From the IMG/VR virus record IMGVR_UViG_3300010371_000778, positions 1 to 23,083 of that record: DNA of 23,083 nt. One strand, given 5' to 3'. How positions within the stretch are numbered: the stretch's first letter is position 1; each line of letters starts with the position of its first letter. Under the pieces are notes generated by a model that was not told the DNA's origin, did no database searches, and saw only the letters and a list, made by a program, of their open reading frames with translations. Position numbers and translations under genes: made by a program. Positions 1 to 20,560 of this stretch are shown one piece after another. Source of the stretch: a virus.

Positions 1-80
1 GCGATCGAGAAGACCGCCGTGAGGACCGGGTACCAGATGGCGGGGTTCGCGTGGAACCACGCTTCGACGGAGGCGAGCAT
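1..80 (-). CDS. Partial membrane protein at left edge, possible holin
   Basis: This is the first start codon (ATG at 80) after the preceding stop in the same frame, with AAGGA about ten bases upstream. The 26 visible residues begin MLASVEAWFHANPAIWYPVL, with an amphipathic start, a Trp/Pro turn, then a hydrophobic stretch (LTAVFSIA) continuing off the edge. The pattern resembles the first membrane helix of short phage holins. With two membrane coiled-coil proteins just upstream a lysis role is reasonable, but too little is visible to assign a family. The 51-base gap 81-131 shows nothing except the ribosome site. Confidence 0.6.
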   Translation of the reverse strand, partial: MLASVEAWFHANPAIWYPVLTAVFSI

Positions 81-1254: not shown

Positions 1255-1962
1255 TCAGGGCGTCCCGAAGGTTGCTGCTGCATACGCTTTCATGGCCGCG
1301 CGTTGACTGACAGACAGCGCCCCGCTGACGCAGATCCATTCGTAGCAGTTGCCGAGCCACGCGCTGGCCAGCGTGTTCGAGTTCCCCAAGCCGAAATCGG
1401 TTCCCACTCCCGTCGCCCCTGCATTGGCCACGGTCAACGCTCCGCCGTTGATGCCAAGACCGGACGATGCCCCGTTGAAGAGGGCCTCTACCCAAAAGTC
1501 AGACCCTACCGCTATGGCTCCGGTTGCCCCGAGTGCCCCGTTGTATTGCTGGACGGCGGTACCACCGACCTGCTGAAACACGATGGCGCTGTTCCCGGAG
1601 AAATCGTACAGATACTGTGTTGCGCCCGAGGCAACAAGCGACCGGGCGACGACGAGCATCGTAAATGGCGCCGTTGGCGCTGCCCCCAGCACCAAGTTGA
1701 GACGCGTGCTCGCGGGGAAGTAGACGCTCCCTTGCGCATTGCCGCCACCGCTCGCGTTGTACGTTGGTCTCGCGGCGCCCGACGCTGACGCTACGAGATG
1801 ACTGGGGCCGGAATCGGCCAGCGCCGTGACGAGGCTTCCTACGCGCGTGCTGTTCGACCAAAGGAAGTCGAACACAATCGAACTGCCGAAGATTTGGGCC
1901 GGTCCTGGGCGCGACATCCCCGCCGAGCCCCCGACGCCTAGCCCAAGCGCAAGACCCATCAT
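1255..1962 (-). CDS. LamG-like receptor-binding or fibre-tip protein, relative of the tailspike C-terminus, 235 aa
   Basis: The start is ATGATG at 1962/1959, overlapping the tailspike TGA by four or one bases, so translation is coupled. After a Gly-rich lead (MMGLALGLGVGGSAGMS), the product is a concanavalin/LamG-like beta-sandwich: PTYNASGGGNAQGSVYF, then LNLVLGAAPTAPFTMLVV, ATQYLYDFSGN and LGNCYEWICVSGALS. It ends QRAAMKAYAAATFGTP. This order of elements matches the last 220 residues of the tailspike (PTYSASGGINN, then RTVYAVVTP, GDMYRFLVIDRVV, VMAYLNAIYT), so the two are probably homologous domains. It may be a separately encoded tip or an alternative receptor-binding head. A longer upstream reading frame passes through the tailspike gene in a shadow frame and was rejected. 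Confidence 0.8.
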   Translation of the reverse strand: MMGLALGLGVGGSAGMSRPGPAQIFGSSIVFDFLWSNSTRVGSLVTALADSGPSHLVASASGAARPTYNASGGGNAQGSVYFPASTRLNLVLGAAPTAPFTMLVVARSLVASGATQYLYDFSGNSAIVFQQVGGTAVQQYNGALGATGAIAVGSDFWVEALFNGASSGLGINGGALTVANAGATGVGTDFGLGNSNTLASAWLGNCYEWICVSGALSVSQRAAMKAYAAATFGTP

Positions 1963-4900
1963 GTGTAGATCGCGTTGAGGTAGGCCATGACCAGCGTCTC
2001 CTCCGGGCCCGTGACGACGCGGTCGATGACGAGAAACCGGTACATGTCCCCGATCGCTGCCTGACCGGCAGTGTTCGTTGCGACGATGTACCCATTGGTG
2101 CCCGTATCCGAGGCCAGCGCTCCCGGACTCGGGCCCGTCGTCGTGAGGGGCGCCCCGTCGAGCGCCACAGTGGGTGCGCCACTCGCGAGAGCCCACTTGA
2201 TGATATGCGTTCCGCTGGACGGCATGCCCGCCGCGGTCACGATGTTCGTTGTGACGTCCGTGATCGCGTAAGAGCCGTGCGCATTGAGCGTCGCGAGCAT
2301 CGTGATCGCGGGGTTGCCCTGTCGAAAGCAAAACCACGCGGGAAACGTGGCGCTACCTGAAGGCGTCACGACGGCATACACGGTGCGGTCGGACCCGGAC
2401 GGCACGACGTTCGTATTCGAGAAGAGCCACGAACTGCCGGCGGTCGTGAACTTTGGCAGATTGTTGATGCCGCCCGACGCGCTGTATGTAGGCGCGTTCG
2501 CAACGCTATTGGAGGCGTTGTTGTGGAACGTGCTCTGATCGGCCCACGTGACGGTCGTCGGTCCATTCGTCACGCCAAAGCGCGAGTCCAGGTCGAGCTT
2601 CAGGTGAGTCCCGAAGATGTACCAAGGCTCTTGGTCGAGCGCCGCGTCCCCGGTGACGCGAATCCACCGCACACCGTTCGAGCGAATGGTTGCGGAGCAA
2701 GCCGCTGCGACCGTGACGCCCTGCGCGCCCGCCGATTTGAACGTGAGCGACTGGTGCGTGTAGTTCGTGACGCGAAGGACGTACCCATCGGCGAAGGTCG
2801 GGAGGTTGACCTTGCGCGTCGTCGAAAGCAGTCCGCTCGGGTCGCGGATGTCGAGCCCTCCATAGAGGAAGTCGTCCATTGCGACCGTGATGTCGGCGTC
2901 CGATCCGACCGTGAGAATCTTAATCTTGTCGGCCGTATCGCGCACGCGGAGGAAGCCCGTACCGCCCGGGTCGAGCCATGGGCCGCCCTGGTACTGGTAG
3001 CCGTCCACTTCCACCGGGGACGTCTGGTTCGGACCGATCTTGACGATGCCGCCTGCCGCGCCTCCCTTGCCGAATAGGCCGGAGAGGCTCACCCGCTTGC
3101 AGGCGTCGACATAGACGGCGGGTGCTGCCCCGGGCGAGTAGGTTGCCGACATGAAGAGCCCAATGCCGCGGCCATCCACCGAGCCGAGGCCGTTGAGGTA
3201 CAGCATCGCGAGTTCGGTATCGAGGTTCCCCTCATCACTCGGCTCGAGATCCTCGAGCGTGAGCGAGAGTGCGAAGCCATCGTTGCCAGCGATGCCGCAG
3301 AACGCCCCGCGCACCGTCACGTCGGTGCGGAATCCGTGCGTATACATCGTCCGGAAGATGCCGCCCGACGCGGTTGCAATGGCCCACTGCCCGGAGCCCT
3401 GCGCCGTGATCCGCTCGAAGGAGCTGTCGCCCGCGCCTGCCATGACGAGGATGCCCGCATTGAGGTTCCGTGCGGGCGTCTGGCAGGTGAAGAAAATATC
3501 CTCGAAGTGATTCTCGTAGGCGAACGCCTGCACGATGATCGACGCGTTCGAAGCGGTGACGATCAGATCATGGAACCGCGAGAAGGTCGGGGACGTGACG
3601 CGCAGGTTGGCGCCCAGGTTGAGATGCCCCACTTCGGCGCGCGGGATGCGGCTCGTCGATTGAAGTACGAGCCCATGCACCTCGTACCATACGGCCGATC
3701 CGGTCCCGATGCGGGCACCCGTGTACGCCGAAAACGGGTTGTACCCGGACATCGCGACGAGCCAGGAGTTGTGCTTGCTCGAGACATGCGCGCCATGCGG
3801 GCTTGTCCCGTCGTCCGGCCAAAACGAAAGGAGAACGAGCGTGTTGGCATCGCACGCGCCTTCGGAGGTCGGAGCGGTGAAGGATGAGGTCCCGGTATGC
3901 CGTGCAACCTTCGACATGCGGATGTACGCGAAGTCGATGGCATCGCTTCCCAGGGTGTACGCCTCGGCGCCACGAAGAAACCGGGTGAAATATGCGCCGA
4001 TGCAGAAGTGTTCGCCCTTGTCCTGGATGATTGTGGCGCCCGGCGTTCCGGTCGTGGAATGTCCAACGTGGACCCCATCCACGTAGACGTAGATGTTGCC
4101 CGAAGACGAATCGAGGTCGACCTCGATATCGTGCTCCCCCGCGCTCATCCCCGAGCCCGTGAGCACCGACACGATGCCCGCACTCGTGGTCAGCGAGACC
4201 TGGAGCTGGTTCTGGATGCCGTTGACGTTCGAGCCGAGGACGAGAAGCGAGAACGCGCTATGCGCATCCGACGCGCTCAGGCCACCACCCGATGCCGCGT
4301 AGCAGATGCCACCGGACGAGTTGTTCACGACCGCGCGCATCGCGAATGTCCACGCGCTATAGCCGTTGATCTCGCCGCAGTCATACTCGGTGAGATCGAT
4401 GAACGACGACTCCAGCGCGCCCACGAGCCCGTTTTGGAACGTCTGATACCAGAAGTTCCCGCGCTTTGTGCGCGTGGGCGCCACCGTGGCCGGCGACACG
4501 ACGAGCGCGGGACCCGTAAAGTCGTTGGTGATATTCAGAGGCCCGATGGTGATCGCGTTTCCGGCCTTCGGGTTGCCCCCTCCGAAATCGCCCAGGAATC
4601 GCACAGCCTGCGTCATGAAGATGGGACGCTTGATGCGATAGAACGTGGTCGGCGTGCCCGTTACGTCCGTAAACTCGCCGCTTCGCGGCACGTGAACGAT
4701 GGTCGGGTTGACCGACGTTGCTGCCGTCGCGATGGCGCCTTCGATCGCATCCGCACAATCCGTGACGCCGTCGCCCTTCGCACCCTTCTCGCGGATGTCG
4801 AAGTGGATCGGCGACTGGGTCTCCCAGCCGCGATTGACGAGTTGCCACCGGTTGTTGGTGGTCTCGTAGCGGAAGGTGCAGCGCCCACCGAACGGCTTCA

Positions 4901-5837
4901 GGACAACGGCGCCGCCGTTGCCACTGCCCGTGATGATCCGGTTCGTCGAGGTCGAGACCGACGACGCCTGATCGATGATCGTGAGCGGGTAGGCCGTCGT
5001 GTTGATCGCGACGAGGTCGAGGCCCGGCTTCGTCGAGGCCGTGGTCGCGATCCCGTCGATCGTGGACGCCGACGTGAGCCCGCCGATGAGGAGCGTGGAG
5101 AGCCCCGTCGTGCCGACGTTCGAGTTCCGGTTGCTCGTCGCGCTCGTCGCGGAGTTCGTCGTCCCGGAGTACGGCGTGCTCAGGGTGAACGAGCCCGACG
5201 AGACGGTCGAGACCTGATACCACGTGCTCGCCTGCGCCCCGAAGAGGACGAGGTCCCCGGGGAAGAGCGCTGCGGTCTGGTTCGCAGTCGATGTGACCGT
5301 GGCGGAGTCTTTCGTGACACCGACGGTCCCAGAAAGAACGGTCCCGGAAAGCGTGACGTTGAACTGGCCTTGGTTGCCGGTCCCGGAGCCGCCGCCTCCG
5401 CCGTTGCGAACCACGTCGTTGAACGGGATGATCCAGCCGAAGACCGGGTCTTCCTCGAGCGCCTCGTTGACGGCGAGAACCGACTGGCCGCCGCTCGTCT
5501 TGACGTTGACCTTGAAGGTCGCGGTGTACGAGCTCTGGGGCCGGCCATTCGCATCAAGGCCAGGGCCCAGGATGCCGACCGTCGACGTGAAGACGACGGC
5601 GCTGCCGAGACTCGCAGGCGCCGTGAACGAGAACGTCTTGGCCGTGTGGTCCACGGACAACGTCGCGTTGATCGCGTCTGCCGTGTTCTGGTCATCGGTC
5701 GACGTGCACGCGATCGTCCAGAACTTCACGCCTGCGTCCGACGCGAGCGACCCGTTGACCGTGGCGCTGGCCACAACGCTCGGGGCGGGCGTGGTCGACG
5801 CGCCATTGATCAGACAGACGGGGCTCGGTGCGGGCAT
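1959..5837 (-). CDS. Large tailspike: pectate-lyase-type beta-helix with LamG-like modules, 1292 aa
   Basis: The chosen ATG at 5837 has GGGAG four bases upstream; an alternative in-frame ATG at 5861 (eight residues longer) lacks a site. Residues about 30-145 form an Ig-like virion attachment region ending DPVFGWIIPFNDVVRNGGGG. Residues about 344-375, HFDIREKGAKGDGVTD then AIEGAIATA, are the canonical opening of pectate-lyase-superfamily beta-helices. The helix then seems interrupted by a concanavalin/LamG-like domain (about 475-650; GEHDIEVDLDSSSGNIYVYV, then DGVHVG). It resumes with short repeating strands (about 740-990). The C-terminus (about 1073-1292) is another LamG-like domain, related to the next gene's product. 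Such spikes bind and often cleave capsule or O-antigen; catalytic residues cannot be assigned here. It ends in ATGATG, overlapping the next start. Confidence 0.88.
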   Translation of the reverse strand: MPAPSPVCLINGASTTPAPSVVASATVNGSLASDAGVKFWTIACTSTDDQNTADAINATLSVDHTAKTFSFTAPASLGSAVVFTSTVGILGPGLDANGRPQSSYTATFKVNVKTSGGQSVLAVNEALEEDPVFGWIIPFNDVVRNGGGGGSGTGNQGQFNVTLSGTVLSGTVGVTKDSATVTSTANQTAALFPGDLVLFGAQASTWYQVSTVSSGSFTLSTPYSGTTNSATSATSNRNSNVGTTGLSTLLIGGLTSASTIDGIATTASTKPGLDLVAINTTAYPLTIIDQASSVSTSTNRIITGSGNGGAVVLKPFGGRCTFRYETTNNRWQLVNRGWETQSPIHFDIREKGAKGDGVTDCADAIEGAIATAATSVNPTIVHVPRSGEFTDVTGTPTTFYRIKRPIFMTQAVRFLGDFGGGNPKAGNAITIGPLNITNDFTGPALVVSPATVAPTRTKRGNFWYQTFQNGLVGALESSFIDLTEYDCGEINGYSAWTFAMRAVVNNSSGGICYAASGGGLSASDAHSAFSLLVLGSNVNGIQNQLQVSLTTSAGIVSVLTGSGMSAGEHDIEVDLDSSSGNIYVYVDGVHVGHSTTGTPGATIIQDKGEHFCIGAYFTRFLRGAEAYTLGSDAIDFAYIRMSKVARHTGTSSFTAPTSEGACDANTLVLLSFWPDDGTSPHGAHVSSKHNSWLVAMSGYNPFSAYTGARIGTGSAVWYEVHGLVLQSTSRIPRAEVGHLNLGANLRVTSPTFSRFHDLIVTASNASIIVQAFAYENHFEDIFFTCQTPARNLNAGILVMAGAGDSSFERITAQGSGQWAIATASGGIFRTMYTHGFRTDVTVRGAFCGIAGNDGFALSLTLEDLEPSDEGNLDTELAMLYLNGLGSVDGRGIGLFMSATYSPGAAPAVYVDACKRVSLSGLFGKGGAAGGIVKIGPNQTSPVEVDGYQYQGGPWLDPGGTGFLRVRDTADKIKILTVGSDADITVAMDDFLYGGLDIRDPSGLLSTTRKVNLPTFADGYVLRVTNYTHQSLTFKSAGAQGVTVAAACSATIRSNGVRWIRVTGDAALDQEPWYIFGTHLKLDLDSRFGVTNGPTTVTWADQSTFHNNASNSVANAPTYSASGGINNLPKFTTAGSSWLFSNTNVVPSGSDRTVYAVVTPSGSATFPAWFCFRQGNPAITMLATLNAHGSYAITDVTTNIVTAAGMPSSGTHIIKWALASGAPTVALDGAPLTTTGPSPGALASDTGTNGYIVATNTAGQAAIGDMYRFLVIDRVVTGPEETLVMAYLNAIYT

Positions 5838-5841
5838 GCGT

Positions 5842-5846
5842 CTCCC
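5842..5846 (-). promoter_or_regulatory. Ribosome binding site (GGGAG) deciding the tailspike start
   Basis: GGGAG ends four bases before the ATG at 5837. The in-frame ATG at 5861 has only GC-rich sequence without a purine run before it, so the shorter start is preferred. Confidence 0.55.
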
Positions 5847-5901
5847 GTCCCCTGGCGCCATGCGCCGGGGCTCACGCGTTCAATGGTCTCGGGTCGAGCC
5901 G

Positions 5902-6721: not shown

Positions 6722-7558
6722 CTACGGGAACTGCATCGAGCCGATGGCGCTGTAGGTCGGCTGGATGGCGATGTAGAGGTTTCCGGTGGCAGCGTTGGCG
6801 CCGTTCTCGTCAACCATCTTGAGCATGTACGTGTACTGCGACGTATCGATCACGTTGTTCTGATTGCACGTGACCGTGAAGCTCTGAACCGCACTGCTCG
6901 CGTCCCACGCCGGTCCGTTGGCCGGCGCGGGGCTCTGGGCCGCCGTGGTCGACATGGCCACCGTCGTGTTCGAGCCGACCGTGGCTCGGTACATCCCGAA
7001 GGCCGGAAGGACGGCCGGTAGGCTGGCGTGTGGGCCGTTGACGATGAACCAGACCTTGACGCTCGTCAGCGTGGAGCCGTTGTGCGGCTGGTCGATGAGG
7101 ACGTACTGAACCGCGTTCGTCGCGGGGCCCTGGAGTCCGCCCATGCTTGCCAGGACGGGCGTCTGGAAGGTCCACCCGGTGCCGAGCGCCTGGAACCGGG
7201 GCCACAGCATTGGGGACCGCGAACGCGTGGCTGAGAACGTCACCCAGTCGCTTGCGCCGCCGGCGTGCTGGAAGCCACCGGCGATCGTGCTCTGCACCGC
7301 GCCCGCGGCCGATGCCTGGAGAGCTCCCGTGACCGTCGCGTTGAGGCCCGCGCTTCCCAGAAGGAAGATCGTGGCGCCGCTGTCGACCTGGAACGAAGTG
7401 CTGGTGAGGACGTGATAGACGACTCCGACGCCCCCAAGATCATCGCTCGCCGTCTTGTCAAAAGCGTTCGCGTGATCGATATCGAGCGCGGTCGCTTGGG
7501 CGGCGGTGTAGATATCGTGCGCTGCCCATCCACTGGGGTTGACCCTGGTGAAGCTCAC
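6722..7558 (-). CDS. Tail fibre-type protein, 278 aa
   Basis: The GTG at 7558 overlaps the gp48-like stop (GTGA). The N-terminus, SFTRVNPSGWAAHDIYTAAQ followed by ALDIDHANAFDKTA, resembles the attachment start of many short tail-fibre or receptor proteins ('vNp.gW..gd.lt..q.n.ld.n...AlD'). The rest is beta-rich with Gly/Ala/Ser/Thr repeats, including a short strand-turn segment (NATVTGALQASAAGAVQSTI) near 74-93 that looks like a beta-helix or stalk, and a C-terminal folded domain (SSAVQSFTVTCNQNN, then YTYMLKMVDENG). The position immediately after gp48-like is where Mu carries its fibre gene (gpS). I cannot name the receptor. The role as fibre or fibre connector is inferred. Confidence 0.7.
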   Translation of the reverse strand: MSFTRVNPSGWAAHDIYTAAQATALDIDHANAFDKTASDDLGGVGVVYHVLTSTSFQVDSGATIFLLGSAGLNATVTGALQASAAGAVQSTIAGGFQHAGGASDWVTFSATRSRSPMLWPRFQALGTGWTFQTPVLASMGGLQGPATNAVQYVLIDQPHNGSTLTSVKVWFIVNGPHASLPAVLPAFGMYRATVGSNTTVAMSTTAAQSPAPANGPAWDASSAVQSFTVTCNQNNVIDTSQYTYMLKMVDENGANAATGNLYIAIQPTYSAIGSMQFP

Positions 7559-8280
7559 GCGAACACCTCGTTATCCAGGTTGCCGGGATCGTCCAGCTTG
7601 AAGCCCAGCGTGCCGCCCGAGTTCGCGAGCACCGTGTCCCAGGTGACGTACGCCGGGAGGTACTTGTCCATGATATCCCCGATCTTCCCGGCGGTCGCGT
7701 AAAAGAGCGCGTTCGGAGAGCCATCGGCGTTCTTGTAGCCGGCCACATTCTGGGTGAGCACGACCAGGATGTGCAGGACCGTGGAATACCAGGGCGCGAG
7801 CGCGTTCGGCGTCCCGCCCGGCCAATAGACCAACGCCGTGGCGGGCGGATTATGGACGATGCTCACGAAGATCGGCCCGATGGCGGCTTGCACCTGATCG
7901 GCGATGGTCTGGTAGACGTTGTCATCGGCAAGACGGGCCCATGCGGTCGCCACAGCGTTCCGCCGGTCGACCTCCGTGTCGGTCGGAGCGGGGTTCAGGC
8001 CGAAGACGCGCTCCCAGCGGGGCAGCATCCCGCTTGCCACGGTCGCCTTGGTCGGGAGGAAGCTGTTGGCGAGCCGCTCGTTGGCGCCATAGAGGTCGAA
8101 GCTGATCGCCCGGGCGATCGCCATATTCTCGAGGCCGACAATGCTCGAGACGGTCTGGTCGTACGCATCTCCTCGACCCGCCGCGAGCGACTCGAAGACG
8201 ATCTGAAGCATCGGCTTATTGCTCGGCGTCCCCGCTCCGCCGTAGCGCCGAATAGGGCACCAGCCTCCATAGAACGGCAT
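7555..8280 (-). CDS. Baseplate protein of the Mu gp48/YmfQ (DUF2313) type
   Basis: The 241-residue protein carries the family's most typical block at 86-115: LPRWERVFGLNP, then TDTEVDRRNAVATAWA, i.e. 'L..WE..lGL....s...RR..v....'. A preceding helical part (AYDQTVSSIVGLENMAIARA, 39-58) corresponds to the usual residence segment of these proteins. A middle segment, AIGPIFVSIVHNPPATALVY, is followed by a region (WYSTVLHILVVLTQN) that fits the C-terminal domain ending near a conserved LP-A. Proteins of this family link the J-like wedge to tail fibres. It begins directly after the upstream stop (TGAATG), and its stop overlaps the next GTG by four bases (GTGA), so this is a tightly coupled set. Confidence 0.8.
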   Translation of the reverse strand: MPFYGGWCPIRRYGGAGTPSNKPMLQIVFESLAAGRGDAYDQTVSSIVGLENMAIARAISFDLYGANERLANSFLPTKATVASGMLPRWERVFGLNPAPTDTEVDRRNAVATAWARLADDNVYQTIADQVQAAIGPIFVSIVHNPPATALVYWPGGTPNALAPWYSTVLHILVVLTQNVAGYKNADGSPNALFYATAGKIGDIMDKYLPAYVTWDTVLANSGGTLGFKLDDPGNLDNEVFA

Positions 8281-8790
8281 TCAGTACGCCACCACCACGA
8301 AGTCGACGGTCGTCGGATCGGTCAGCGAGCCGCTCGCGTTGAAGATCGCAAAGCTCACAACGTTTGCCGATGTGATGTTCGACTGGAAGCTGTACTGGGT
8401 GACGAGGCTCTTGCACTCGCCCGTGGACGCATGCAGGTTCACAGCGATCGGCCCGATGTAGCCCGGCTTCGTCGGGTCGATCATGTCATCGGACACGCTC
8501 GATGGCCACGTCACGGTCCCTTGCCCTGTATTGGTCCGCGCGACCGTGGGGGCGACGGCGTTCGCGTTGCCCCACATCGCGAAATGGGACACGAGCGTCG
8601 GCGCTCCCGTGCCGGACCATGTGAACCGCGCCATCGCGCGGGGACACGTCCGGGTCATCATCGCGACGTCGTTGAAGGCGTTGTTTCCCGCGCTCGCGTC
8701 GAGATCGGTGGTCGCGTCGATCGCGGCGGTGCCCTGGTAGTTCTCGAGCTGGCCTCCGTAGTTGGCCAGGGACGCCGGGTTAGGGAGCAT
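8281..8790 (-). CDS. Unknown structural protein between J-like and gp48-like genes, 169 aa
   Basis: The ATG at 8790 starts MLPNPASLANYGGQLENYQG. The product is beta-rich with many Ser/Thr/Asn/Ala residues, like virion fibre or baseplate proteins, and has no signal or membrane segment. It ends in alternating strands (VVSFAIFNASG, TVDFVVVAY). Two cysteines (C49, C126) are present. In Mu the gp48-like gene directly follows gp47; here this gene and the antisense lipoprotein are inserted between them. The stop TGA is immediately followed by the next ATG (TGAATG), tying it to the gp48-like gene, so a baseplate or fibre-associated role is likely. I recognise no family. Any transcript from the J-like gene must cross the lipoprotein as antisense to reach it, unless a promoter lies just upstream. 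Confidence 0.75.
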   Translation of the reverse strand: MLPNPASLANYGGQLENYQGTAAIDATTDLDASAGNNAFNDVAMMTRTCPRAMARFTWSGTGAPTLVSHFAMWGNANAVAPTVARTNTGQGTVTWPSSVSDDMIDPTKPGYIGPIAVNLHASTGECKSLVTQYSFQSNITSANVVSFAIFNASGSLTDPTTVDFVVVAY

Positions 8791-8825
8791 ATTCTCGAGT
8801 CCTCACAGTCGTTTACGTGGCCTCA

Positions 8826-8854
8826 TTCGACGCCAACCGAAAACGCGGTACGCT
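8826..8854 (+). promoter_or_regulatory. Candidate promoter of the lipoprotein gene
   Basis: TTCGAC (8826-8831) and TACGCT (8849-8854) are 17 bases apart, the right spacing for -35 and -10 boxes, though the -35 match is weak. The TAnnnT box ends seven bases before the ATG at 8862, so the transcript would start at or next to the start codon. A short AAGG just before the ATG could serve ribosome binding only if transcription began further upstream. Confidence 0.3.
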
Positions 8855-8861
8855 GAAGGTC

Positions 8862-9518
8862 ATGCGTTGCGTGGTGATGGCGGTCTTGAGCGTCGCGGTT
8901 CTCGGATGCAGCGGCTCGGTAGGCGGGACCGCGATCGGCATCTCAGAGGAGGGCGCCGCAGGCGACACCGGCACGACACCGGCCGCGCCGTCGACGGTCG
9001 TCGTAGTCGATGCGGGGGCCCTTCATGAGGACGACGGCGAGGATGTGGATGGCGGCGTCGCGCCCGGAGCGGATGCGGCCTGCGTGCCCCGCGCGTGCGG
9101 CGGTGCTCGATGCCAGAACCTCGACGATGGGTGCGGGCACATGCTGGGCTGCTGGGACTCGTCGTGCGTCCCGCCGTCGCCCCCCTCGACCGTGCCTCCT
9201 GTCGAAGGCGACCCGCCCAGTGAAGTCGACGCGAGCGCCGCAGTCGATGCCGGCGCCTCATCGCCCGATGCGATGGCCGTCTTCGATGCGGGCCACGTAA
9301 TCGTGACCTGCGGCAGTTTCATCTGCGGGACGGACCCGACGATCTGCCACAACGGCCAGATCTTCATGGACGGGGTCGTCTACGCATGCACACCCGGGAA
9401 CACCACCTGCGGCTACGCGCTTCAGGCGAACTTCACGTGGGTCAAGTCGTGCTGCACGGACGACCAACGCCTCAGCGGCAATTGTCGCGGCGACGGCACC
9501 GGGGCGCCGCCCTACTAG
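8862..9518 (+). CDS. Cys-rich secreted lipoprotein, candidate moron antisense to the baseplate operon
   Basis: The ATG at 8862 was chosen because the product then begins with a standard lipoprotein signal: MRC, hydrophobic VVMAVLSVAVLG, then lipid cysteine C16 followed by Ser-Gly-Ser. A longer frame from 8817 lacks this. The mature 203-residue part starts with an acidic, Ala/Thr/Pro-rich linker with VDAG repeats. A cysteine cluster follows (C74, C79, C84, C91, C97, C102) around DDGCGHMLGC (88-97), then a second Pro/Asp-Ala-Gly linker, then a C-terminal domain with eight cysteines (C150 to C208), probably disulphide-bonded. It would sit on the periplasmic or outer face of a membrane. Prophage lipoproteins in structural operons often give surface exclusion or other conversion traits; that role is inference. 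No domain family is recognised with certainty. Confidence 0.82.
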   Translation: MRCVVMAVLSVAVLGCSGSVGGTAIGISEEGAAGDTGTTPAAPSTVVVVDAGALHEDDGEDVDGGVAPGADAACVPRACGGARCQNLDDGCGHMLGCWDSSCVPPSPPSTVPPVEGDPPSEVDASAAVDAGASSPDAMAVFDAGHVIVTCGSFICGTDPTICHNGQIFMDGVVYACTPGNTTCGYALQANFTWVKSCCTDDQRLSGNCRGDGTGAPPY

Positions 9519-9524
9519 GCGGCG
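9505..9524. terminator. GC stem-loop enclosing both convergent stop codons, possible bidirectional terminator
   Basis: CGCCGCC (9505-9511), a six-base loop CTACTA, and GGCGGCG (9518-9524) form a perfect seven-base-pair GC stem. The loop and first stem base contain the CTAG that gives the stop of both the lipoprotein (9516-9518) and the J-like gene (9517-9515). No T-run follows on either strand, so it is not a classic intrinsic terminator. It could pause polymerase or protect both mRNA ends. Confidence 0.4.
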
Positions 9525-11092
9525 TAGAGCCCGATGTTCCGCGGCACGAGCACGGCGGGCGGCGAGCTCGTGAGCAGGAGCGACGTCGGGTCGATCGTCG
9601 GAAGCCCGGGCGGCGTCGGCATGGTGAAGGGCGTGGGGACCGAGAAGTCGCCGCGGGAGATCCAGTTGGCATCGAGGACTTCGGCGCCGGCGTTGATGAT
9701 CTGTTTTAGGAAGGCGGCGTCGAGCGCATACGGCCAGGCGTTCGTGGTTCGCGGACGACGGAACGAGAACTTGTAGGCCGCGAGTCCACCGTCGATCCAC
9801 TCACCGGGCCCGAGGCCCGCGAATGCCGCGAGGATCGCGTTGATATAGGTCTGCTGGTTCTGCGAGGTGGGGAAGATGAAGTGGCCGACCGAGATGCCGG
9901 GGAACGGGGTGTCGATCGTGATCGCCCACTGCCCACCGACGAAGCTCGCGGACAGCACCGTCGCCGAGTAGAGCGTCCAGTTGCTGGGGTTCAGCCATGA
10001 GACGTGGGTGATCCCGGGCTGCGGCGCAGTCGACGCATGGACCGAGAACACCGTCGAGCTCACGAATGAGCCGACCGTGACAGGCGCAGTTCCGCCCGAG
10101 TTCGACAGCGGCCACGGCGTCCCGTCGAGCCACCCTCCCCCGGGCCCGGCCGGCGAGGCTGTGGTGGCGGCCGGCAGGGACAGAAGGATCGCGATGTCGG
10201 TCGCCTGATTCGCGACCGACGTTCCGACCGCGAGCGCGTGCTCAGGAAGTTGCCCCTGCACGTACGGCAGGATGGTCCCGGTGACGGTCGCCGAGGCGAT
10301 GTCCCTGTTCTTGCTCGTCGAGGTGAACGGTCCGCTCTGTTGCGTCTCCGCGGTCACAGCGAAGAACACCGTGCCAGGACCAAGAAGCGTCGGGTAGACG
10401 AATCCCGCCTGCACGACCGGCGTGGACTCGGTCGTCCACTTCGCGATGTGCGACCAGTTCCCGCCCTTCGGGTCGTTCTGGAGCCGCGCGAAGAGTCGCT
10501 GACGAGGAGGCTCGTCCACCCCGACCTCGCTGTCCTCGCCGCCCGAGAGACCATCCGAGCCGCCCGTAACGCCTACCGTCACCGTCGACGAACTGTATGG
10601 GATGTACGTGGCCCATGTCAGGGCGTCGCCGTTGTCATGGTTCGTCGCGGTCCCCGTATCGAGCGCCGAGATCGGGACGAGCGCGCCGTTCGCATACACG
10701 CCGGGCGCGTCGATCTGGAAGCGCTGACCCGAGGTATCGACGAGCTGAGCCCCGATCGGAAGCGTCGTCGACGCCACGGAGAGCGGCAGTGTAAAGTACC
10801 CATGGCTCCCGATTGCCGGGCGCCGCTGCATGTTGAAGAGCGCGAGCCAGCGGTCGAGATACGAACCGCCCGCCGTATCCGGCATGAGCTGGTCGGCGAG
10901 GATGACGCAGTTGGCCTGACCGACCGCGATCTCGTTGGCGACCGCTGTTGCGATGAGGTCGAAGTCGGACCCCTTCGCGACGTTCGGGTTCGTGACGCCG
11001 CGCGCGATCAGGCCGTTCCGGACGACACGAAGCTGATCGTCATGCGACTGCTTCGCCGTCTTCTGAACGAACGTCAGCGTCGGATAGGACAT
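9515..11092 (-). CDS. Baseplate J-like wedge protein (Mu gp47-like)
   Basis: The 525-residue protein begins MSYPTLTFVQKTAKQSHDDQ, then has GSDFDLIATAVANEIAVGQ (41-59) and an aspartate/glycine block ending GGSYLDRWLALFNMQRRPA. These are the 'G.......l...la.....a.....D..s..fldl.a...gi.R.pa' features of baseplate J. A beta-rich insert follows (PIGAQLVDTSGQRFQID and similar 'G......g..f' strands). The C-terminal half is longer and Pro/Ser/Thr-rich compared with the roughly 350-residue Mu gp47, so it may carry an added domain. J-like proteins form the wedge ring that triggers sheath contraction. Its TAG stop overlaps the stop of the plus-strand lipoprotein through the palindrome CTAG, inside a 7-bp GC stem-loop. 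Confidence 0.87.
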   Translation of the reverse strand: MSYPTLTFVQKTAKQSHDDQLRVVRNGLIARGVTNPNVAKGSDFDLIATAVANEIAVGQANCVILADQLMPDTAGGSYLDRWLALFNMQRRPAIGSHGYFTLPLSVASTTLPIGAQLVDTSGQRFQIDAPGVYANGALVPISALDTGTATNHDNGDALTWATYIPYSSSTVTVGVTGGSDGLSGGEDSEVGVDEPPRQRLFARLQNDPKGGNWSHIAKWTTESTPVVQAGFVYPTLLGPGTVFFAVTAETQQSGPFTSTSKNRDIASATVTGTILPYVQGQLPEHALAVGTSVANQATDIAILLSLPAATTASPAGPGGGWLDGTPWPLSNSGGTAPVTVGSFVSSTVFSVHASTAPQPGITHVSWLNPSNWTLYSATVLSASFVGGQWAITIDTPFPGISVGHFIFPTSQNQQTYINAILAAFAGLGPGEWIDGGLAAYKFSFRRPRTTNAWPYALDAAFLKQIINAGAEVLDANWISRGDFSVPTPFTMPTPPGLPTIDPTSLLLTSSPPAVLVPRNIGLYAA

Positions 11093-12509: not shown

Positions 12510-13790
12510 TCAGAACTGGAGCGCACCCGGCAGGATGCATTCGATCTGGGTGCGCGTACCTTCGCCCGGCGCCTTCGAGAAGCGACGCCCGATGATCCAG
12601 AGCGGCTGCTCCACCTTGTTGCGCTTGTCCATCACATCGACCATCGTGTTGATGGCGACCGGGACGCCGTTGATCGTGTGGCCCTCGATCGTGTAGTTCG
12701 CCGTGAAGGCCTTGCGGCAGAGGAGGGACATCTGCCGGCGCGCGTACGCCTGGATCTGTTCGAGCGTGTGGCTCTCCGGATCGGCGGAGTACATCGGCCG
12801 GGCGTTCGGATCGATGAAGGGTGCGATCGGAATCGCATCTCCGAACGCCGTGAACTTCACCTGCGGGTAGGCCGCGAAGATCGCCGTGTTGTCGGCGAGC
12901 ACCATGGGGTTGGTGATGCCGGCCCGGACCTGCGCCTTCGGGAACTCCGCCCCGCCCGCGACCGCGTAGCAGTACATCACCGACGGCTGGTCCTTACGGG
13001 ACCGCACCACGTGAGACTCGATGATGTTGTTGAGGTCCTGCTCTTGTGGGTTCAGCAGGTGCCGCAGTTGGTAGCTCGGGTCTTGGTCGTAGTCCGGGGT
13101 ACCGACGATGAGGGTCTCCCCGTCGACCGCGGGCCAAAGCCAGAGACCGAAGCGCTGCGTGATGCGAGACGCAAACCCGTAGGCCCCCTCTTGCGGATAG
13201 GGCTTCAGCTGGTGGGTGACGAAGCTCTTGAGGGGCTTCCCCTTTTTGCTCGTCTTGACGCCGCGCTTCTGGCCCTGGATCGCGTTCAGGTTCGCCGCGT
13301 TGTCGGTGGCAAAGACCGTGACGCCAAAGGGCGTGAAGACCGCCTGGAGGGTCTGGTCGAGCGTCTGGCTGGACGACAGCTTGAGTTGCGGATTGATGTG
13401 CGAATCGATCGACGGCGCCAGCCAGTCCCGCCCGCTGACGTGGACGACCGACCCAGAGCCTCGGGCGGAGGCCATCGTGACGTCGTCGATGTACCCAACC
13501 GTCTGTGGGTAGTCCTGGATGGTTACGTCGACGCGTGACCCTGGCTGGAGGATCGCGAAGTCGTCGTCGTTGAGCTCGTCCGTGTCGAAGGCGAACGCCC
13601 ACTGATCCGAGGGCGTAAGGAAGTCCTGCGCGAAATGGTACGCGAGGAACCGCCTGTAAGCCTTCACGACCGACGTCGGCCCACTTGCCCCCTGGGACGA
13701 CGTGGTGGCACTCACCGTGATCGTGAGCGAGTCATCCTCGGGGTTGTCGCTGAACGACTTCCCTGCCCCCGTGACGACGGTGCCAGCCAT
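12510..13790 (-). CDS. Baseplate hub protein (Mu gp44/P-like, gpD/gp27 fold)
   Basis: The 426-residue protein occupies the Mu gp44 position, after gp43-like and before the spike. It has the features of hub proteins of the gp44/late-control-D type: a beta-barrel N-terminal half; LQPGSRVDVTI (81-91) with TVGYIDDVT (97-105), as in the usual 'i.pG..v.v...g..v.tGyvd' pattern; and HVSGRDWLAPSIDS (117-130), the conserved 'v.GRd...D' motif. There is a Lys-rich loop (KTSKKGKPLKS) near the middle and a C-terminal barrel ending TQIECILPGALQF. Hub trimers join tube, spike and wedges. A GAGGGGCG stretch precedes the ATG at 13790. No lysozyme insertion is visible. Confidence 0.9.
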   Translation of the reverse strand: MAGTVVTGAGKSFSDNPEDDSLTITVSATTSSQGASGPTSVVKAYRRFLAYHFAQDFLTPSDQWAFAFDTDELNDDDFAILQPGSRVDVTIQDYPQTVGYIDDVTMASARGSGSVVHVSGRDWLAPSIDSHINPQLKLSSSQTLDQTLQAVFTPFGVTVFATDNAANLNAIQGQKRGVKTSKKGKPLKSFVTHQLKPYPQEGAYGFASRITQRFGLWLWPAVDGETLIVGTPDYDQDPSYQLRHLLNPQEQDLNNIIESHVVRSRKDQPSVMYCYAVAGGAEFPKAQVRAGITNPMVLADNTAIFAAYPQVKFTAFGDAIPIAPFIDPNARPMYSADPESHTLEQIQAYARRQMSLLCRKAFTANYTIEGHTINGVPVAINTMVDVMDKRNKVEQPLWIIGRRFSKAPGEGTRTQIECILPGALQF

Positions 13791-14824: not shown

Positions 14825-16981
14825 CTACGTGTGATGACCGTTTCGGACGTCGATGGGCTGGGACCGGGCTGGGTCCGGCTGGCCCGTGCTGGCCGTCCGT
14901 CCGTGGACCTGGAGGGCCTTGGTGGCGATGTCCAGCGCCGTCGTAAACTGCTTGATCGTCGCCTCGGTGTTCCCGAGTTCGGCGCTCGCGCGGGCCACGC
15001 GCTCGTCCCGGAAGAAGGTCGCGTTCTTGGCGTCGGCGAGCTTCGCCTGCTGTTCGCCTTCCTTGACCTTGTACTCGGCGAGCTTCTCTTTCGCCTTCGC
15101 GACCTGCTCGGGGGTGAGCTTTTTGTTGCGAGCGTCTCCGATGAGCTGCGTCGCCGCGTTGAAGTCGGCGTTCGAGTCGCCCACCTCGTGACGCTGCTTC
15201 TGGATGTCCGTGTCGGCGATCTTGTCGATGATCGCCTGCCCGATCAGACCGACCATCGCGGCGATCGCCACGACGACTCCCGCCGAGCCGGCGGCCGCAC
15301 CGAGATTCGTCGCCAGCGCCTTCTCGACCGTCTTGCCGAGCGCGGCACTGGCGATGTCCTTGGTGATCGACCCCGTTACGGCGAGACCGATGCCGCTCCA
15401 CGGGTTCTTGAGCAGCCAGTCCGCCAGGAACGCGAACGCGTCGATCGCCTTGTCGATCGCTGGCACCCACTCCGGCAGCCTGGTCGCAATGTCGGTCAGG
15501 GCTGGCGCGAGGGCGTTCTCCATCTGCGTGGAGATGGCGTTCATGGCTACCTCGAGCTTCTTGCCCGGGGTATCCATGACGGTCTTGTATTGGGCGTCGA
15601 GTTCGCCCGGGGAGCCGCGGACGTTCATGACGGGGGCCATCTCAGCCCGGACCGCCTCGAGCCCCTTCTCCCCGCCCCCCGCCGCGTTGTAGATCGGCGC
15701 AAGGTGCTGAAGGACCTTGGCACCACGAAGCCCGAAGGCTTCGTTGAGCGCCGTCATGTTGCCGCGGCTGCCTGTCAGCGACGCCTCGATCATCTGCTGG
15801 AGATCTTCGATCTGCCCCGCCTTGTTGATCTTGACGCCCCAGCCCTTCAGCTTGTTGACGTGCTCCTCGTTTCGGAGCCCTTCAGTCGAGAGATCCTTGA
15901 CCGCGGTCGCGGCGTCCGCAGCCGAACCTGCTTCCGGTCGTGCCAACTGGGCCAGCGCCAGAAGCTTGCGCTGGTTCTCGCCGATATCGCCCGCGTACTG
16001 ACCTCGGGCAGAGCCGATGGTCCCGGCGAGCGCCGCCATGTCCTTGATCTCGACGGCGCCCTGCTTTCCCTGCGCCATCATGTCGAGCATCATCTGCTGC
16101 ATCGATGCCGAGTCGAGGTTCTTGTTCTGGGCCTGCAAGATGCCAGCGGCGCCGGTGATGTCGTTCATGGAGCTCCCGGACGCGACGCTCAGCTTCGCGA
16201 AGAAGTCCATGTTCTTCATCGCGTTGCCGAACTGGTCGGCGCCTGCGAGTGCGACGTAGTTCTGCGTTCCTGCGATGAGATCGGACCGCGAGACGCCATG
16301 CGTCTTTGCAACGACGCTGGCCTGGCCGAGGATATTGTCGACCGTCGCACCGGGCTGCGTGACGCCACCGCTCGTCGCTGAGTTCACGAGGAGCGCAGCG
16401 GCCTGCTGGTCGGATGCCTGCTTGTGGAAGGCGTCGGCGAGTTGGAAGCCCCCGAGGATGCCACCGGCGAGCCCCGCGGCGCCTGCCACGCCACCGATCG
16501 CACCGCCAAACGCACCGGATACCCGATGTGCGGACGCGCGCCTCTCGTTCAGTTCCTCGCGAACTTGGCGCTCCGCGAGGCGCCCGGCCTGGATCGACGA
16601 GTTGATCCGGACACGTTGTTTGAAGTCCTCGAGTCGCTTCGCCTCGCGCTCCTGCTCCTTGGCCGAGCGCTTGGCCTCGCGGATCTCCGCATCCGCCTGC
16701 TTGCCGGCTGCGAGGCCCGCCATCTCGGAGGACCGCCGCCGTACGTCAGCCTTGTACTTCTCGAGCCGATCGGCCTCGCGCTGAGCATCTTTGTTGGCTT
16801 TCGTCGAAGCCTTCGCCTCGTCATCCACGGCCCGGATGCGTGCGCGCGCCGTGCGAGTCGCCCCGTCCGTGCTCGACTTCTCGAGCCGGCGGACATTCTG
16901 CTCGATCGTCGTGAAGGCCTTGGAAACGTCAGTCAGTCCCGCGGTTGCGAAAGCAATGACGACGGGGTCGATCGTGGGCAT
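14825..16981 (-). CDS. Tail tape measure protein, 718 aa
   Basis: The longest gene in the central tail block, between chaperone and hub genes, with the usual make-up of a tape measure. A helical, highly charged coiled-coil N-terminus (about 20-150) is followed by a Gly/Ala hydrophobic stretch (157-180). Next come long amphipathic helices rich in Ala/Gln/Met, a second hydrophobic patch (about 565-585), then another charged coiled coil (about 615-690) and a polar tail. It occupies the tail lumen during assembly and sets tail length. By the rule of about 0.15 nm per residue, 718 residues predict a tail near 110 nm (inference). GAGG sits just upstream of the ATG at 16981. Residues 69-107 and 113-151 form a diverged tandem duplication. 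No peptidase or muramidase motif was recognised. Confidence 0.93.
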   Translation of the reverse strand: MPTIDPVVIAFATAGLTDVSKAFTTIEQNVRRLEKSSTDGATRTARARIRAVDDEAKASTKANKDAQREADRLEKYKADVRRRSSEMAGLAAGKQADAEIREAKRSAKEQEREAKRLEDFKQRVRINSSIQAGRLAERQVREELNERRASAHRVSGAFGGAIGGVAGAAGLAGGILGGFQLADAFHKQASDQQAAALLVNSATSGGVTQPGATVDNILGQASVVAKTHGVSRSDLIAGTQNYVALAGADQFGNAMKNMDFFAKLSVASGSSMNDITGAAGILQAQNKNLDSASMQQMMLDMMAQGKQGAVEIKDMAALAGTIGSARGQYAGDIGENQRKLLALAQLARPEAGSAADAATAVKDLSTEGLRNEEHVNKLKGWGVKINKAGQIEDLQQMIEASLTGSRGNMTALNEAFGLRGAKVLQHLAPIYNAAGGGEKGLEAVRAEMAPVMNVRGSPGELDAQYKTVMDTPGKKLEVAMNAISTQMENALAPALTDIATRLPEWVPAIDKAIDAFAFLADWLLKNPWSGIGLAVTGSITKDIASAALGKTVEKALATNLGAAAGSAGVVVAIAAMVGLIGQAIIDKIADTDIQKQRHEVGDSNADFNAATQLIGDARNKKLTPEQVAKAKEKLAEYKVKEGEQQAKLADAKNATFFRDERVARASAELGNTEATIKQFTTALDIATKALQVHGRTASTGQPDPARSQPIDVRNGHHT
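16529..16777 (-). repeat. Tandem 44-residue duplication inside the tape measure coiled coil
   Basis: Residues 69-107 (beginning EADRLEKYK) and 113-151 (beginning EAKRLEDFK) align without gaps, 18 of 39 identical by my count. Shared positions include EAxRLE, K, VR, SS, AG and the final SA. The offset is 44 residues, i.e. 132 bases. Low-complexity helices can look alike by chance, but the matched non-Ala/Glu positions argue for real duplication. Confidence 0.6.
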
Positions 16982-16990
16982 CGCCCCTCG

Positions 16991-17668
16991 CTATTTAGAC
17001 GGACTTGGCGCGCTCACTTCGGCGGCGGGCGGCGAGCCAGACGAGAAACTGTCCGTCGGTGAGATCATCAGGAGCTTCGAGACCAAATGCTCGATCAGGC
17101 CAATCAGAGCCCCCGATGAGTGCTGCCCTAAAGGGGAAGCGTCGGCGCCCTCCATGAGGCGAGCCACCCACGCGTCCATCTCGGCCTCGGTCATCTCGGC
17201 GATGATCGGACCGCTCTCGACCTTGAGAAGGAGGTAGTGCTGGTAAAGCACTGCGTATTCGTCGCTCACGAGCTTCCCGCGAGCCGCCTCGGCGCTTGGA
17301 AAGGCGGGCAGCGCCGGCGCATTGACGTCGCGCGCGGCGATCGCCATGAGCTGCACCATGAGCTCGTTGCGGTAGATTTCGTCGTAGCCGAGGTCCCCGA
17401 TCGGCGCCGACTTGGTGGCCTCCCGGGCGAACGCTGAGGCCCCAGCGCGGCACTGGTGGAGCTCCCCCTCGGTGAGGATCTGGAGCCGCAGACTGCCCGG
17501 CGATTCCTCTCCAGGGCGCACCGGGAACGACACGACCTTGTGGGGCCGCGGACGCTGGGTGAGGCGCGCCCAAAGTTCGCTCGCGGTGACGTCCGTGGGC
17601 GGCCCGTTGCCCTTGGTGGCGGCGGACTGCTCGAGGAGCTTGCGGGCCTGCGCGACCGTGAGACTCAT
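16991..17668 (-). CDS. Presumed tail assembly chaperone, 225 aa, single reading frame
   Basis: It lies between tube and tape measure, the slot of tail assembly chaperones (Mu gp41/Y region, lambda G/GT), so it is assigned by context. The protein has a helical N-terminus (SLTVAQARKLLEQ), a FPVRPGEESPGSLRLQILT block (48-66), then ELHQCRAGASAFARE. The middle is mainly helical and the Ser/Pro-rich tail is probably disordered. Such chaperones bind the tape measure and recruit tube subunits. Many relatives use a programmed frameshift to make a long form. Here the gene ends ten bases before the tape-measure start, leaving no room for a downstream extension, and I saw no convincing slippery run. The start at ATG 17668 lies four bases after the tube stop. 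Confidence 0.7.
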   Translation of the reverse strand: MSLTVAQARKLLEQSAATKGNGPPTDVTASELWARLTQRPRPHKVVSFPVRPGEESPGSLRLQILTEGELHQCRAGASAFAREATKSAPIGDLGYDEIYRNELMVQLMAIAARDVNAPALPAFPSAEAARGKLVSDEYAVLYQHYLLLKVESGPIIAEMTEAEMDAWVARLMEGADASPLGQHSSGALIGLIEHLVSKLLMISPTDSFSSGSPPAAEVSAPSPSK

Positions 17669-18156: not shown

Positions 18157-19734
18157 TCAGCCGACTTGCATCGCCAAAATCGCAGCGACGTCGAAGATGG
18201 CGCAGGGCGAGAGCGGGATGGACACGCTCATGCGATTCGGGTTCGCCGTCTCGATCTGCGGCCCCTGGAAGTTCGCGTTGATCATGTCCGCCGGGGTCTG
18301 CCCCTGCTGCGGCACGTTCCCGGGGATGTAGGACCACTGCCCGAGGTCGCCGTAGTTGCTGACCTGGCCCTGGAGGAGCCCCTTCCAGACCCGCGGCGTG
18401 ACCGCGGTGGGCGGGACCGGCTGGCCAGGGATGGGGTCCGGTAGGAGATCCTTGCCCCCGCACTGGGTCGTGGTGATCGCCGCGACGTCGTCACAGAAGT
18501 AGTCGCAGACCGTGACCTTGTGCGCGTCCCGGATCCGGTAATCCGCGGTGGACCCGTTGAGCGACCGCGTGGTGATGCGCTTCACCATTTGTGCGGCGCC
18601 GGTCTGGAGCACGGTGATCGGGGTGATCCCGTTCTGGAGCGCGCTGTAGATCTGCGCCTGCGTCGGGGCCCCGCCCGCGCCGTTCCGTCCCGCGATGACG
18701 GGCCAGTAGGACGCGTCGTTGGCCTGGGCCGGGAAGAGCGAGAAGTTCTTCCGGTTGACGCCGTACTGGGAGCCCTGCTCGAGCGTGGCATAGATCGCCG
18801 TGGCGGTCGCCGCGAGCTCGGCAGGGGTCATGTCCGTCGCGTTGCCCCAGACGCACTCCGCCCGCGCGGCGTTCACGCCGGTCGCGAGGGTGATGGTGTT
18901 CGCAAGGGTGTCCATCGACCCGAAGACGACGCGCTGCCGGTTCCCGTTCGTCGGGAGGGCCAGCGAATTGACCTGGGTGACGAGCGCTCCGACGTTCGTG
19001 GCGTCCGAGTCGCCGCACACGATGTAATAGAAGCGCTGGCTGGCGATCGTCGAGAGCGCGGAAGTGTAGCTGTCCGCGGTGGCGCCGCTCGTGAGGAAGG
19101 TGTTGCTCGTGAGCGTGGTGGTGGTCGCCACGCCGGTTCCCGTGAGGAGCGCCTGGACGCGGCCCCAGTTGCCCTCGGGTCCCGCATGCTTCCACGTGAT
19201 GGTGATCACGCCCGCGGTGTTCGCGGCGGTGATCGGCCAGCTGGTCTGGGCGTTGATGCTCGCCACGATCGCGGTGGCGATCTGGGTGACGGTCTGCCCG
19301 GTGGTGATCGGGGTGTCGACGAACTGGTCCAGGCACCAGAAGCGATGATTTCCGGTGGCGGCCGCCGTCGTGGCGATCGTCATCGTCGTCGACGCCGCGG
19401 TTCCGCCCGAGGCAGTGACCGCGATGAAGAAGAGGGGCGTCGTGTTGTTGACCCCGGCCGCCTTCACGAACCGGATGAACATCCGGTGAAGCTGGGAGCC
19501 CGGGCCGAAGAGGGCGATGACGTCGGCCTCGGTCTGGCAGGGGATGGCCGTGTTCGGCCCGTAGATGACCGTGTCCGCGGTCGCCGACCCCGCCGAGGTC
19601 TTGTTGCCCATGAGGAGGACGGCGCGCGCGGCACCGCTGCCCCCGGACTGGCCGACCGCGAAGTCGAGCTCCACGAGGACGCCCGGCACGACGTAGCCGG
19701 CCGGGACACCGTTGAGGTTGATCGCAGCGGGCAT
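18157..19734 (-). CDS. Contractile tail sheath protein (Mu gpL-like)
   Basis: The 525-residue product matches the Mu gpL type of sheath in length and architecture. PGVLVELDF (17-25) is followed by ARAVLLMGNKTSAG (36-49), the usual N-terminal block of this family. A Thr/Ala-rich variable domain sits in the first half. The C-terminal half has the conserved core, including YWPVIAGRNG and RITTRSLNGSTADYRIRD. The end, NPNRMSVSIPLSPCAIFDV, is typical of the terminal handshake region. Sheath subunits stack as hexameric rings around the tube and contract to drive it through the host envelope. The gene starts three bases after the gp38-like stop and is followed by a 106-base gap before the tube gene, one of the longest non-coding gaps here. 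Confidence is high. Confidence 0.95.
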   Translation of the reverse strand: MPAAINLNGVPAGYVVPGVLVELDFAVGQSGGSGAARAVLLMGNKTSAGSATADTVIYGPNTAIPCQTEADVIALFGPGSQLHRMFIRFVKAAGVNNTTPLFFIAVTASGGTAASTTMTIATTAAATGNHRFWCLDQFVDTPITTGQTVTQIATAIVASINAQTSWPITAANTAGVITITWKHAGPEGNWGRVQALLTGTGVATTTTLTSNTFLTSGATADSYTSALSTIASQRFYYIVCGDSDATNVGALVTQVNSLALPTNGNRQRVVFGSMDTLANTITLATGVNAARAECVWGNATDMTPAELAATATAIYATLEQGSQYGVNRKNFSLFPAQANDASYWPVIAGRNGAGGAPTQAQIYSALQNGITPITVLQTGAAQMVKRITTRSLNGSTADYRIRDAHKVTVCDYFCDDVAAITTTQCGGKDLLPDPIPGQPVPPTAVTPRVWKGLLQGQVSNYGDLGQWSYIPGNVPQQGQTPADMINANFQGPQIETANPNRMSVSIPLSPCAIFDVAAILAMQVG

Positions 19735-19737
19735 CGG

Positions 19738-20199
19738 TCAGGCCCCTTCCTTCGCGGTCGCCGGCAGCACGGTGAGCGCCGCTTTGCTCGCATCGAACTT
19801 GCTGGAGTCGAACTCGAAGCCCTGGGCCGGAATCGCGTTCGCGACATCCACGACGACCGACGGCGCGAGCGTGTGCTCTCCGCCGAACTTCGGGTCGAAC
19901 GCGCAGCCCGCGATCCGCGCGGTCTCTTCGTCGGCCGCCCAGAAGTCCCCGTCTCGGAGATGGCGGATGTACTCCGGCGTGACCGGCAGTTCGATCACGT
20001 GCTCGTCGGTCGAGACCTCGATCGGCTCGAAGCCGCCTGAGCGGCGCTTCACGATGGCGCCCGTCTCGGTCCGGTCCTCGTATTCCTCACCGACGTTCGG
20101 ATCGTGCGTCCAGCCGTGGAACTTGCGGACGACGTGCTGGTGCTCGTAGTGCGGCACCATCGCCTGTCCGCGCGGAAGAACGCGCAGCGTCTTGGGCAT
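19738..20199 (-). CDS. Mu gp38-like (DUF2635-type) protein upstream of sheath, expanded to 153 aa
   Basis: I chose the ATG at 20199 because GGAG lies six bases upstream; an in-frame TTG at 20211 has no such support. The protein starts MPKTLRVLPRGQAMVP and later has IELPVTPEYIRHLRDGDF (69-86). These two blocks resemble the two ends of the short DUF2635 proteins that precede the sheath gene in Mu-like phages (a 'v.P..g..v.d' start and a final 'y..Rl.dGDv'). Here an insert of about 50 residues separates them and a C-terminal extension follows. That extension contains AIPAQGFEFD (122-131), closely matching AIPKDGFEFD in the tail tube protein encoded at 17673-18050. The stop lies three bases before the sheath ATG, so the pair is probably coupled. 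The family link is moderate; the precise role is unknown. Confidence 0.72.
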   Translation of the reverse strand: MPKTLRVLPRGQAMVPHYEHQHVVRKFHGWTHDPNVGEEYEDRTETGAIVKRRSGGFEPIEVSTDEHVIELPVTPEYIRHLRDGDFWAADEETARIAGCAFDPKFGGEHTLAPSVVVDVANAIPAQGFEFDSSKFDASKAALTVLPATAKEGA

Positions 20200-20293: not shown

Positions 20294-20560
20294 ATGAGCG
20301 CTCATCCGCTTCAGCACGTGTTCGATGAGAACGAGCGACGTCGCACCGAGGACTGCCCGGGGTGCGGTTCGCAGAACGACCGCGACTGGATGGCCTGCAC
20401 GAAGTGCGGGCTATGCCGTGAGGGCTGGCTCACGGGGCCGAGCCGCTTCTATGGCGCTCGCAAGTGCCTGGAGTGCGGCGAGACGGTGCGCGTCAACGGT
20501 GTCGGTGGCGTCGCAGCGGCTCTGGTGACGCCATGCGACTCGGACCGCTGCTACGTGTAG
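20294..20560 (+). CDS. Small multi-CxxC (zinc-ribbon-like) protein, candidate moron, 88 aa
   Basis: This is one of only two plausible plus-strand genes. The ATG at 20294 is the first start whose product looks natural; the frame extends upstream but through Arg-rich shadow sequence. The product carries paired cysteines C21-P-G-C24, C35-T-K-C38, C58-L-E-C61 and C81/C86, plus C41, each CxxC followed by glycine, as in zinc ribbons. A Trp/Tyr-containing stretch (EGWLTGPSRFYG) sits between the knuckles. No membrane segment or signal is visible. No Shine-Dalgarno sequence precedes the ATG, but a TACGGT box lies eight bases upstream, so the message may be leaderless. Opposite orientation inside a tail operon suggests independently expressed prophage cargo, perhaps a small regulator. 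Function is unknown. Confidence 0.72.
   Translation: MSAHPLQHVFDENERRRTEDCPGCGSQNDRDWMACTKCGLCREGWLTGPSRFYGARKCLECGETVRVNGVGGVAAALVTPCDSDRCYV

Follow-up and report, generated by a model that had tools for sequence, protein, structure and literature searches.

Why should an intact lipoprotein gene lie antisense among the tail genes of a phage, and what might its product do? The window, meaning the whole 23,083 b stretch of DNA analysed here, is an IMG/VR virus record carrying the tail genes of a phage whose baseplate is of the Baseplate_J type, and its confident structural genes all lie on the minus strand, with the lipoprotein gene (8862-9518, plus strand) as the exception. As described in an earlier note on this DNA, the gene occupies an antisense position within a one-strand cluster. 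It lies between the Baseplate J-like gene, which is the preceding late gene (9515-11092, minus; PF04865 Baseplate_J, E = 1.5e-18) and whose stop codon overlaps its own in the sequence CTAG (9515-9518), and a conserved 169-residue tail gene (8281-8790, minus) that in relatives comes directly after J. Beyond these lie a Gp48-like baseplate wedge gene (7555-8280, minus), assigned from a domain match below the cut-off together with other comparisons, and a tail spike gene (1959-5861, minus) with a weak pectate-lyase-like match in the domain search. The feature had been given as 8791-9518, of which 8862-9518 is the gene, whilst 8791-8861 is non-genic: these 71 b separate the lipoprotein gene from the divergently oriented late gene that follows, are the likely site of any promoter, and have an AT content of 45% against 34% for the whole window. 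Likewise, the statement that all structural genes are on the minus strand holds for the confident ones, but a weaker plus-strand ORF with zinc-ribbon-like motifs is also found at 20294-20560. This antisense ORF encodes 88 residues (DZR, E = 7.4e-5, below the cut-off) and sits in the structural cluster between 19738-20199 and 20551-21519.

The lipoprotein gene is an open frame of 218 residues beginning MRCVVMAVLSVAVLGC, a sequence with the basic start, hydrophobic stretch and lipobox cysteine (VLGC) of a bacterial lipoprotein. A GAAGG motif lies immediately 5′ of the ATG at 8862, with no such site at the alternative longer start, GTG 8817, and the lipid cysteine is thus taken to be C16 (codon 8907-8909). 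The GC content by codon position, calculated for the version of the ORF starting at 8817, is coding-like (.66/.58/.82), and none of 5000 shuffles of the insert contained a frame of at least 218 residues with a lipobox start. Cysteines are found at positions 3, 16, 74, 79, 84, 91, 97, 102, 150, 155, 162, 176, 183, 197, 198, and 208, with 14 besides C16 falling into a first cluster of six (residues 74-102; 9081-9167, plus) and a second of eight (residues 150-208; 9309-9485, plus), bearing out the earlier description of an intact lipoprotein with two cysteine clusters. In myxobacteria, retention in the inner membrane follows a +2 Lys / +7 Ala rule (PMC5562445). The +2 Ser and +7 Gly of the window lipoprotein provide no retention signal by this rule, and the protein should, as judged from its sequence, be destined for the outer membrane.

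Searches of Pfam, PHROGs, NCBIfam, and PDB sequences returned no match to the window lipoprotein, no relative was found among the viral contigs and deposited phages searched, and none of the libraries searched recognises it as a virion protein. The absence of a recognised domain stands as far as Pfam, PHROGs, and NCBIfam are concerned. The first cysteine cluster nevertheless resembles a 30-residue module, CxPxxC..C..DDGCG....C, often in tandem, that recurs in surface proteins of Polyangiales and is present in 75 of 115 Polyangiales genomes. Individual genomes of this order can carry dozens of copies of the module, with 71 in one of them. No Pfam family matched the window copy, which scores 17.7 bits against the module model; when two host modules found through the window protein are left out of the model, the best domain falls to 13.4 bits and the full-sequence score to 5.1 after bias correction, no longer above all shuffles. 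This drop indicates that the link between the window protein and the module rests largely on an intermediate, the host protein L028, in which the same lipobox, acidic Asp/Ala-rich linker and module (CxPxxC..DDGCG..C) precede a longer domain. Whereas the Polyangiales proteins have multiple modules or additional domains, the window protein has one divergent copy followed by its second cluster, for which no known relative was found in domain libraries or Polyangiales genomes. A profile search with this C-terminal region and a structure prediction had both been proposed at the outset; the matches from the former, in five Polyangiales genomes, were rejected as chance alignments to a cysteine-poor protein family, and the single-protein prediction gave no usable fold, its mean pLDDT being 38.

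Relatives of the phage were located through the J protein and neighbouring tail proteins, giving some 30 related phage loci, one of which is a prophage in Polyangium sp. 15x6. Together with the Polyangiales-type cysteine module, this relative fits a myxobacterial host; the host is probably a soil myxobacterium, and the lipoprotein has probably been drawn from the myxobacterial gene pool. In 22 related loci the J gene and the 169-residue tail gene are adjacent, at spacings of −4 to +18 b with L003 the one exception at 86 b, compared with 724 b in the window, implying that the 724 b insert is private to the window. The composition of the insert (68.0% GC) is not unlike that of J (66.7%) or the window (66.3%). 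The proposal of an accessory (moron) gene inserted antisense is supported by its absence from the J/169-residue junction in every relative seen, and by the recurrence of its kind in nine further phages.

These further genes emerged from a search for lipobox ORFs on the opposite (minus) strand of the relatives’ tail clusters, which split cleanly into many chance ORFs lying wholly within late genes and a set in gaps between genes with 6-18 further cysteines. The window and at least nine others, ten phages in all, have a cysteine-rich lipoprotein gene placed antisense within the tail-fibre region, in slots that differ among the phages. In the relatives these are, all on the minus strand, 14788-15714 of L002 (= L005), 13749-14186 of L004 (truncated by the contig end), 13853-14332 of L006, 14224-14778 of L018 (closing the fibre cluster, with a further minus-strand gene after it), 10473-11081 of L053, 9904-10323 of L056 (adjoining a second antisense gene), 12568-12825 of L063, 7565-7987 of L110, and, less surely owing to a 324 b overlap with a called late ORF, 11089-11736 of L064. 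The layout is consistent, with nearly all 3′ ends lying −32 to +28 b from the preceding late gene (L064 being uncertain) and, where another late gene directly follows, starts lying 51-139 b from it. The next gene is spike-like in L002, L006, and L053, and the 169-residue tail gene in the window. Fifteen loci whose sequence extends at least 3.5 kb beyond J had no such gene in the cluster, and five further loci were too short to tell, a count that predates L110 and the loci found alongside it; one of the fifteen, the Polyangium sp. 15x6 locus L011, has two antisense cysteine-rich lipoprotein genes just beyond the tail operon, at 17005-17607 and 18990-19346.

The encoded proteins are mostly unrelated in sequence. 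In a test of fifteen pairs with cysteine positions kept fixed, window-L002, window-L006, L002-L053, L004-L053, and L006-L011 showed weak similarity, outscoring most shuffles (p about 0.02 or less), whilst the remaining pairs did not. The trait is patchily distributed across the J tree, being present in L006 and absent from its sister L012, and together with the varied slots and mostly unrelated sequences this makes repeated gain the simplest reading. Several other genes were observed around these clusters. The second antisense gene of L056 (10395-11147, minus) encodes a 250-residue protein with a likely membrane anchor; L054, a relative of 34% GC, carries an antisense gene just past its tail genes (12914-13222, minus) for a likely lipoprotein of 102 residues with 12 cysteines; L008 has a sense-strand lipoprotein after its tail genes (14851-15411, plus) with a metalloprotease-like motif, HETLHAIGLDH; and antisense genes that appear HNH endonuclease-like by eye lie between structural genes in L016 (7809-8321, minus) and L010 (11644-12342, minus).

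Genes antisense to lytic genes are described as characteristic of prophage accessory loci (PMC7067206), and the orientation of the lipoprotein gene opposite to the late genes suggests expression apart from them. Regions upstream of the antisense lipoprotein genes outscore those of late genes for a sigma-70 promoter (p 5e-4); the promoter scores of the in-cluster genes, calculated with a pre-set sigma-70 matrix, do not, however, exceed those of composition-matched shuffles (p 0.39). A pattern, TTSGAC-16..18-TANNNT, lies upstream of three of the lipoprotein genes and has 8 matches in 734 kb of strand, but it was derived from those same sequences and is given no weight here. Scanning of 8600-9700 revealed no terminator, and the convergent stop codons overlap. 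In L063, the gap between the convergent late and lipoprotein genes (12548-12567) is exactly a perfect 20 b palindrome, CTCATAAATCGATTTATGAG, possibly a two-way terminator. No integrase is encoded in the 23,083 b window, but integrases were found in 8 of the 17 virus records searched, including the contigs of L003 and L005, indicating that temperate phages occur in the group. Neither the promoter scores, nor the terminator scan, nor the gene content of the window bears out the note's suggestion that the gene may be expressed only in the lysogen and silenced during late transcription.

The arrangement is of a known kind, exemplified by T5 llp and lambda bor, of which the window gene is a variant. 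T5 llp, the gene for the lytic conversion lipoprotein, lies opposite the late genes and divergent from the receptor-binding gene oad, with a 79 b gap, similar to the 71 b of the window, and annotated promoters in both directions; its product blocks the receptor FhuA (PMC9586334). In contrast to the window gene, T5 llp borders the late cluster without interrupting it, its precursor is of 77 residues rather than 218, its divergent neighbour is an adsorption gene rather than a tail gene not proven to bind a receptor, and it alone has a proven function. Lambda bor is also an opposite-strand lipoprotein gene converging on a late gene, Rz, and is expressed in the lysogen (PMC7067206), but it encodes 97 residues and lies beside lysis genes rather than tail genes. 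The superinfection exclusion lipoprotein Rtp45 of phage Rtp is likewise encoded just past a lambda-J-like tail gene on the opposite strand (PMC12685063), though it is about 6 kDa when mature, has one reported disulphide, and shares its strand with the neighbouring rtp44. The window lipoprotein has no sequence similarity to lambda Bor or to T5 Llp, the sole Llp-type member compared.

Taken together, we place roughly a 45% probability on an accessory outer-membrane lipoprotein gene, probably myxobacterial, lying antisense between late genes and most likely serving superinfection exclusion. The lipoprotein would be translated from a transcript of its own, independently of the late programme, then exported, lipidated at C16, and held by its disulphides in the envelope. 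There it would alter the surface of the cell, whether infected or lysogenic, and may block or alter the receptor of the adjacently encoded tail fibres, as T5 Llp does with FhuA. The recurrence of mostly unrelated lipoproteins in the same layout in nine relatives argues for a job at the cell surface of the infected cell, and exclusion is preferred over general conversion, with modest confidence, because the slots found are at fibre genes, like those of the coliphage exclusion lipoproteins, which adjoin receptor-binding genes (PMC9586334, PMC12685063). Against exclusion stand the size of the window protein and its long linker, known exclusion lipoproteins, such as T5 Llp, being small, its dissimilarity to Llp and Bor, neighbours (J and the 169-residue gene) that include no proven receptor-binding gene, and an in-cluster promoter signal not beyond base composition.

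It is possible, although doubtful, that the protein instead aids the host as a lysogenic-conversion surface protein, in adhesion, polymer binding, predation, or stress. The host-type cysteine module fits such a role, as do L028, with the shared lipobox, linker and module ahead of its longer domain, and the L002 lipoprotein, which has a stretch (E = 6.4e-5, below the Pfam cut-off) resembling Lcl_C, a domain known from an adhesin. Lambda Bor provides a precedent (PMC7067206). Conversion, however, leaves the clustering among fibre genes unexplained, a clustering seen within the tail-gene surroundings, the sole region examined. A recently acquired host gene without function for the phage would account for the patchy presence, and with no close relative in any search selection is not measurable; such a neutral passenger is nonetheless unlikely given the intact frame, lipobox and even cysteine numbers, and the same orientation of its kind in ten phages. 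That the transcript itself is the agent, extending beyond the overlapping stops to dampen J, or excluding infecting phages as the antisense RNA STnc6030 of prophage BTP1 does (PMC7067206), is very unlikely: whilst no terminator was found between the convergent genes, a coding-like ORF and lipobox would be superfluous, and the L063 palindrome might stop such transcripts.

A late or virion function, as a tail-fibre partner or outer spanin, is suggested by the location within the structural cluster, and outer spanins are lipoproteins. Both versions were rejected as highly improbable, with the gene lying opposite to all late genes, matching no PHROG, and being absent from relatives with the same tail genes. 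Hardly any weight is given to a toxin passed from cell to cell through outer-membrane exchange, as with SitA, a family of outer-membrane lipoproteins encoded on the prophage-like Mx-alpha elements of myxobacteria (PMC5562445). Although the window protein is also a lipoprotein on a phage element, no immunity gene follows on the same strand, that side being occupied by J on the opposite strand, and domain searches found no toxin domain, so the SitA-like reading was rejected.

Lipoprotein-mediated superinfection exclusion has been worked out in a few coliphages, and phage receptors in the phylum Myxococcota are, to our knowledge, poorly characterised. A broader and more tentative proposal is that phages of this phylum hold an exchangeable antisense lipoprotein slot among their fibre genes, filled with unrelated cysteine-rich lipoproteins from the host's pool of surface proteins, each matched to the receptor of the adjacent fibre, which would form a polymorphic exclusion system. 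The antisense layout shared by ten related phages, with lipoproteins that differ between them, offers a means of finding such genes by position and orientation alone, and makes the link between fibre and lipoprotein directly testable.
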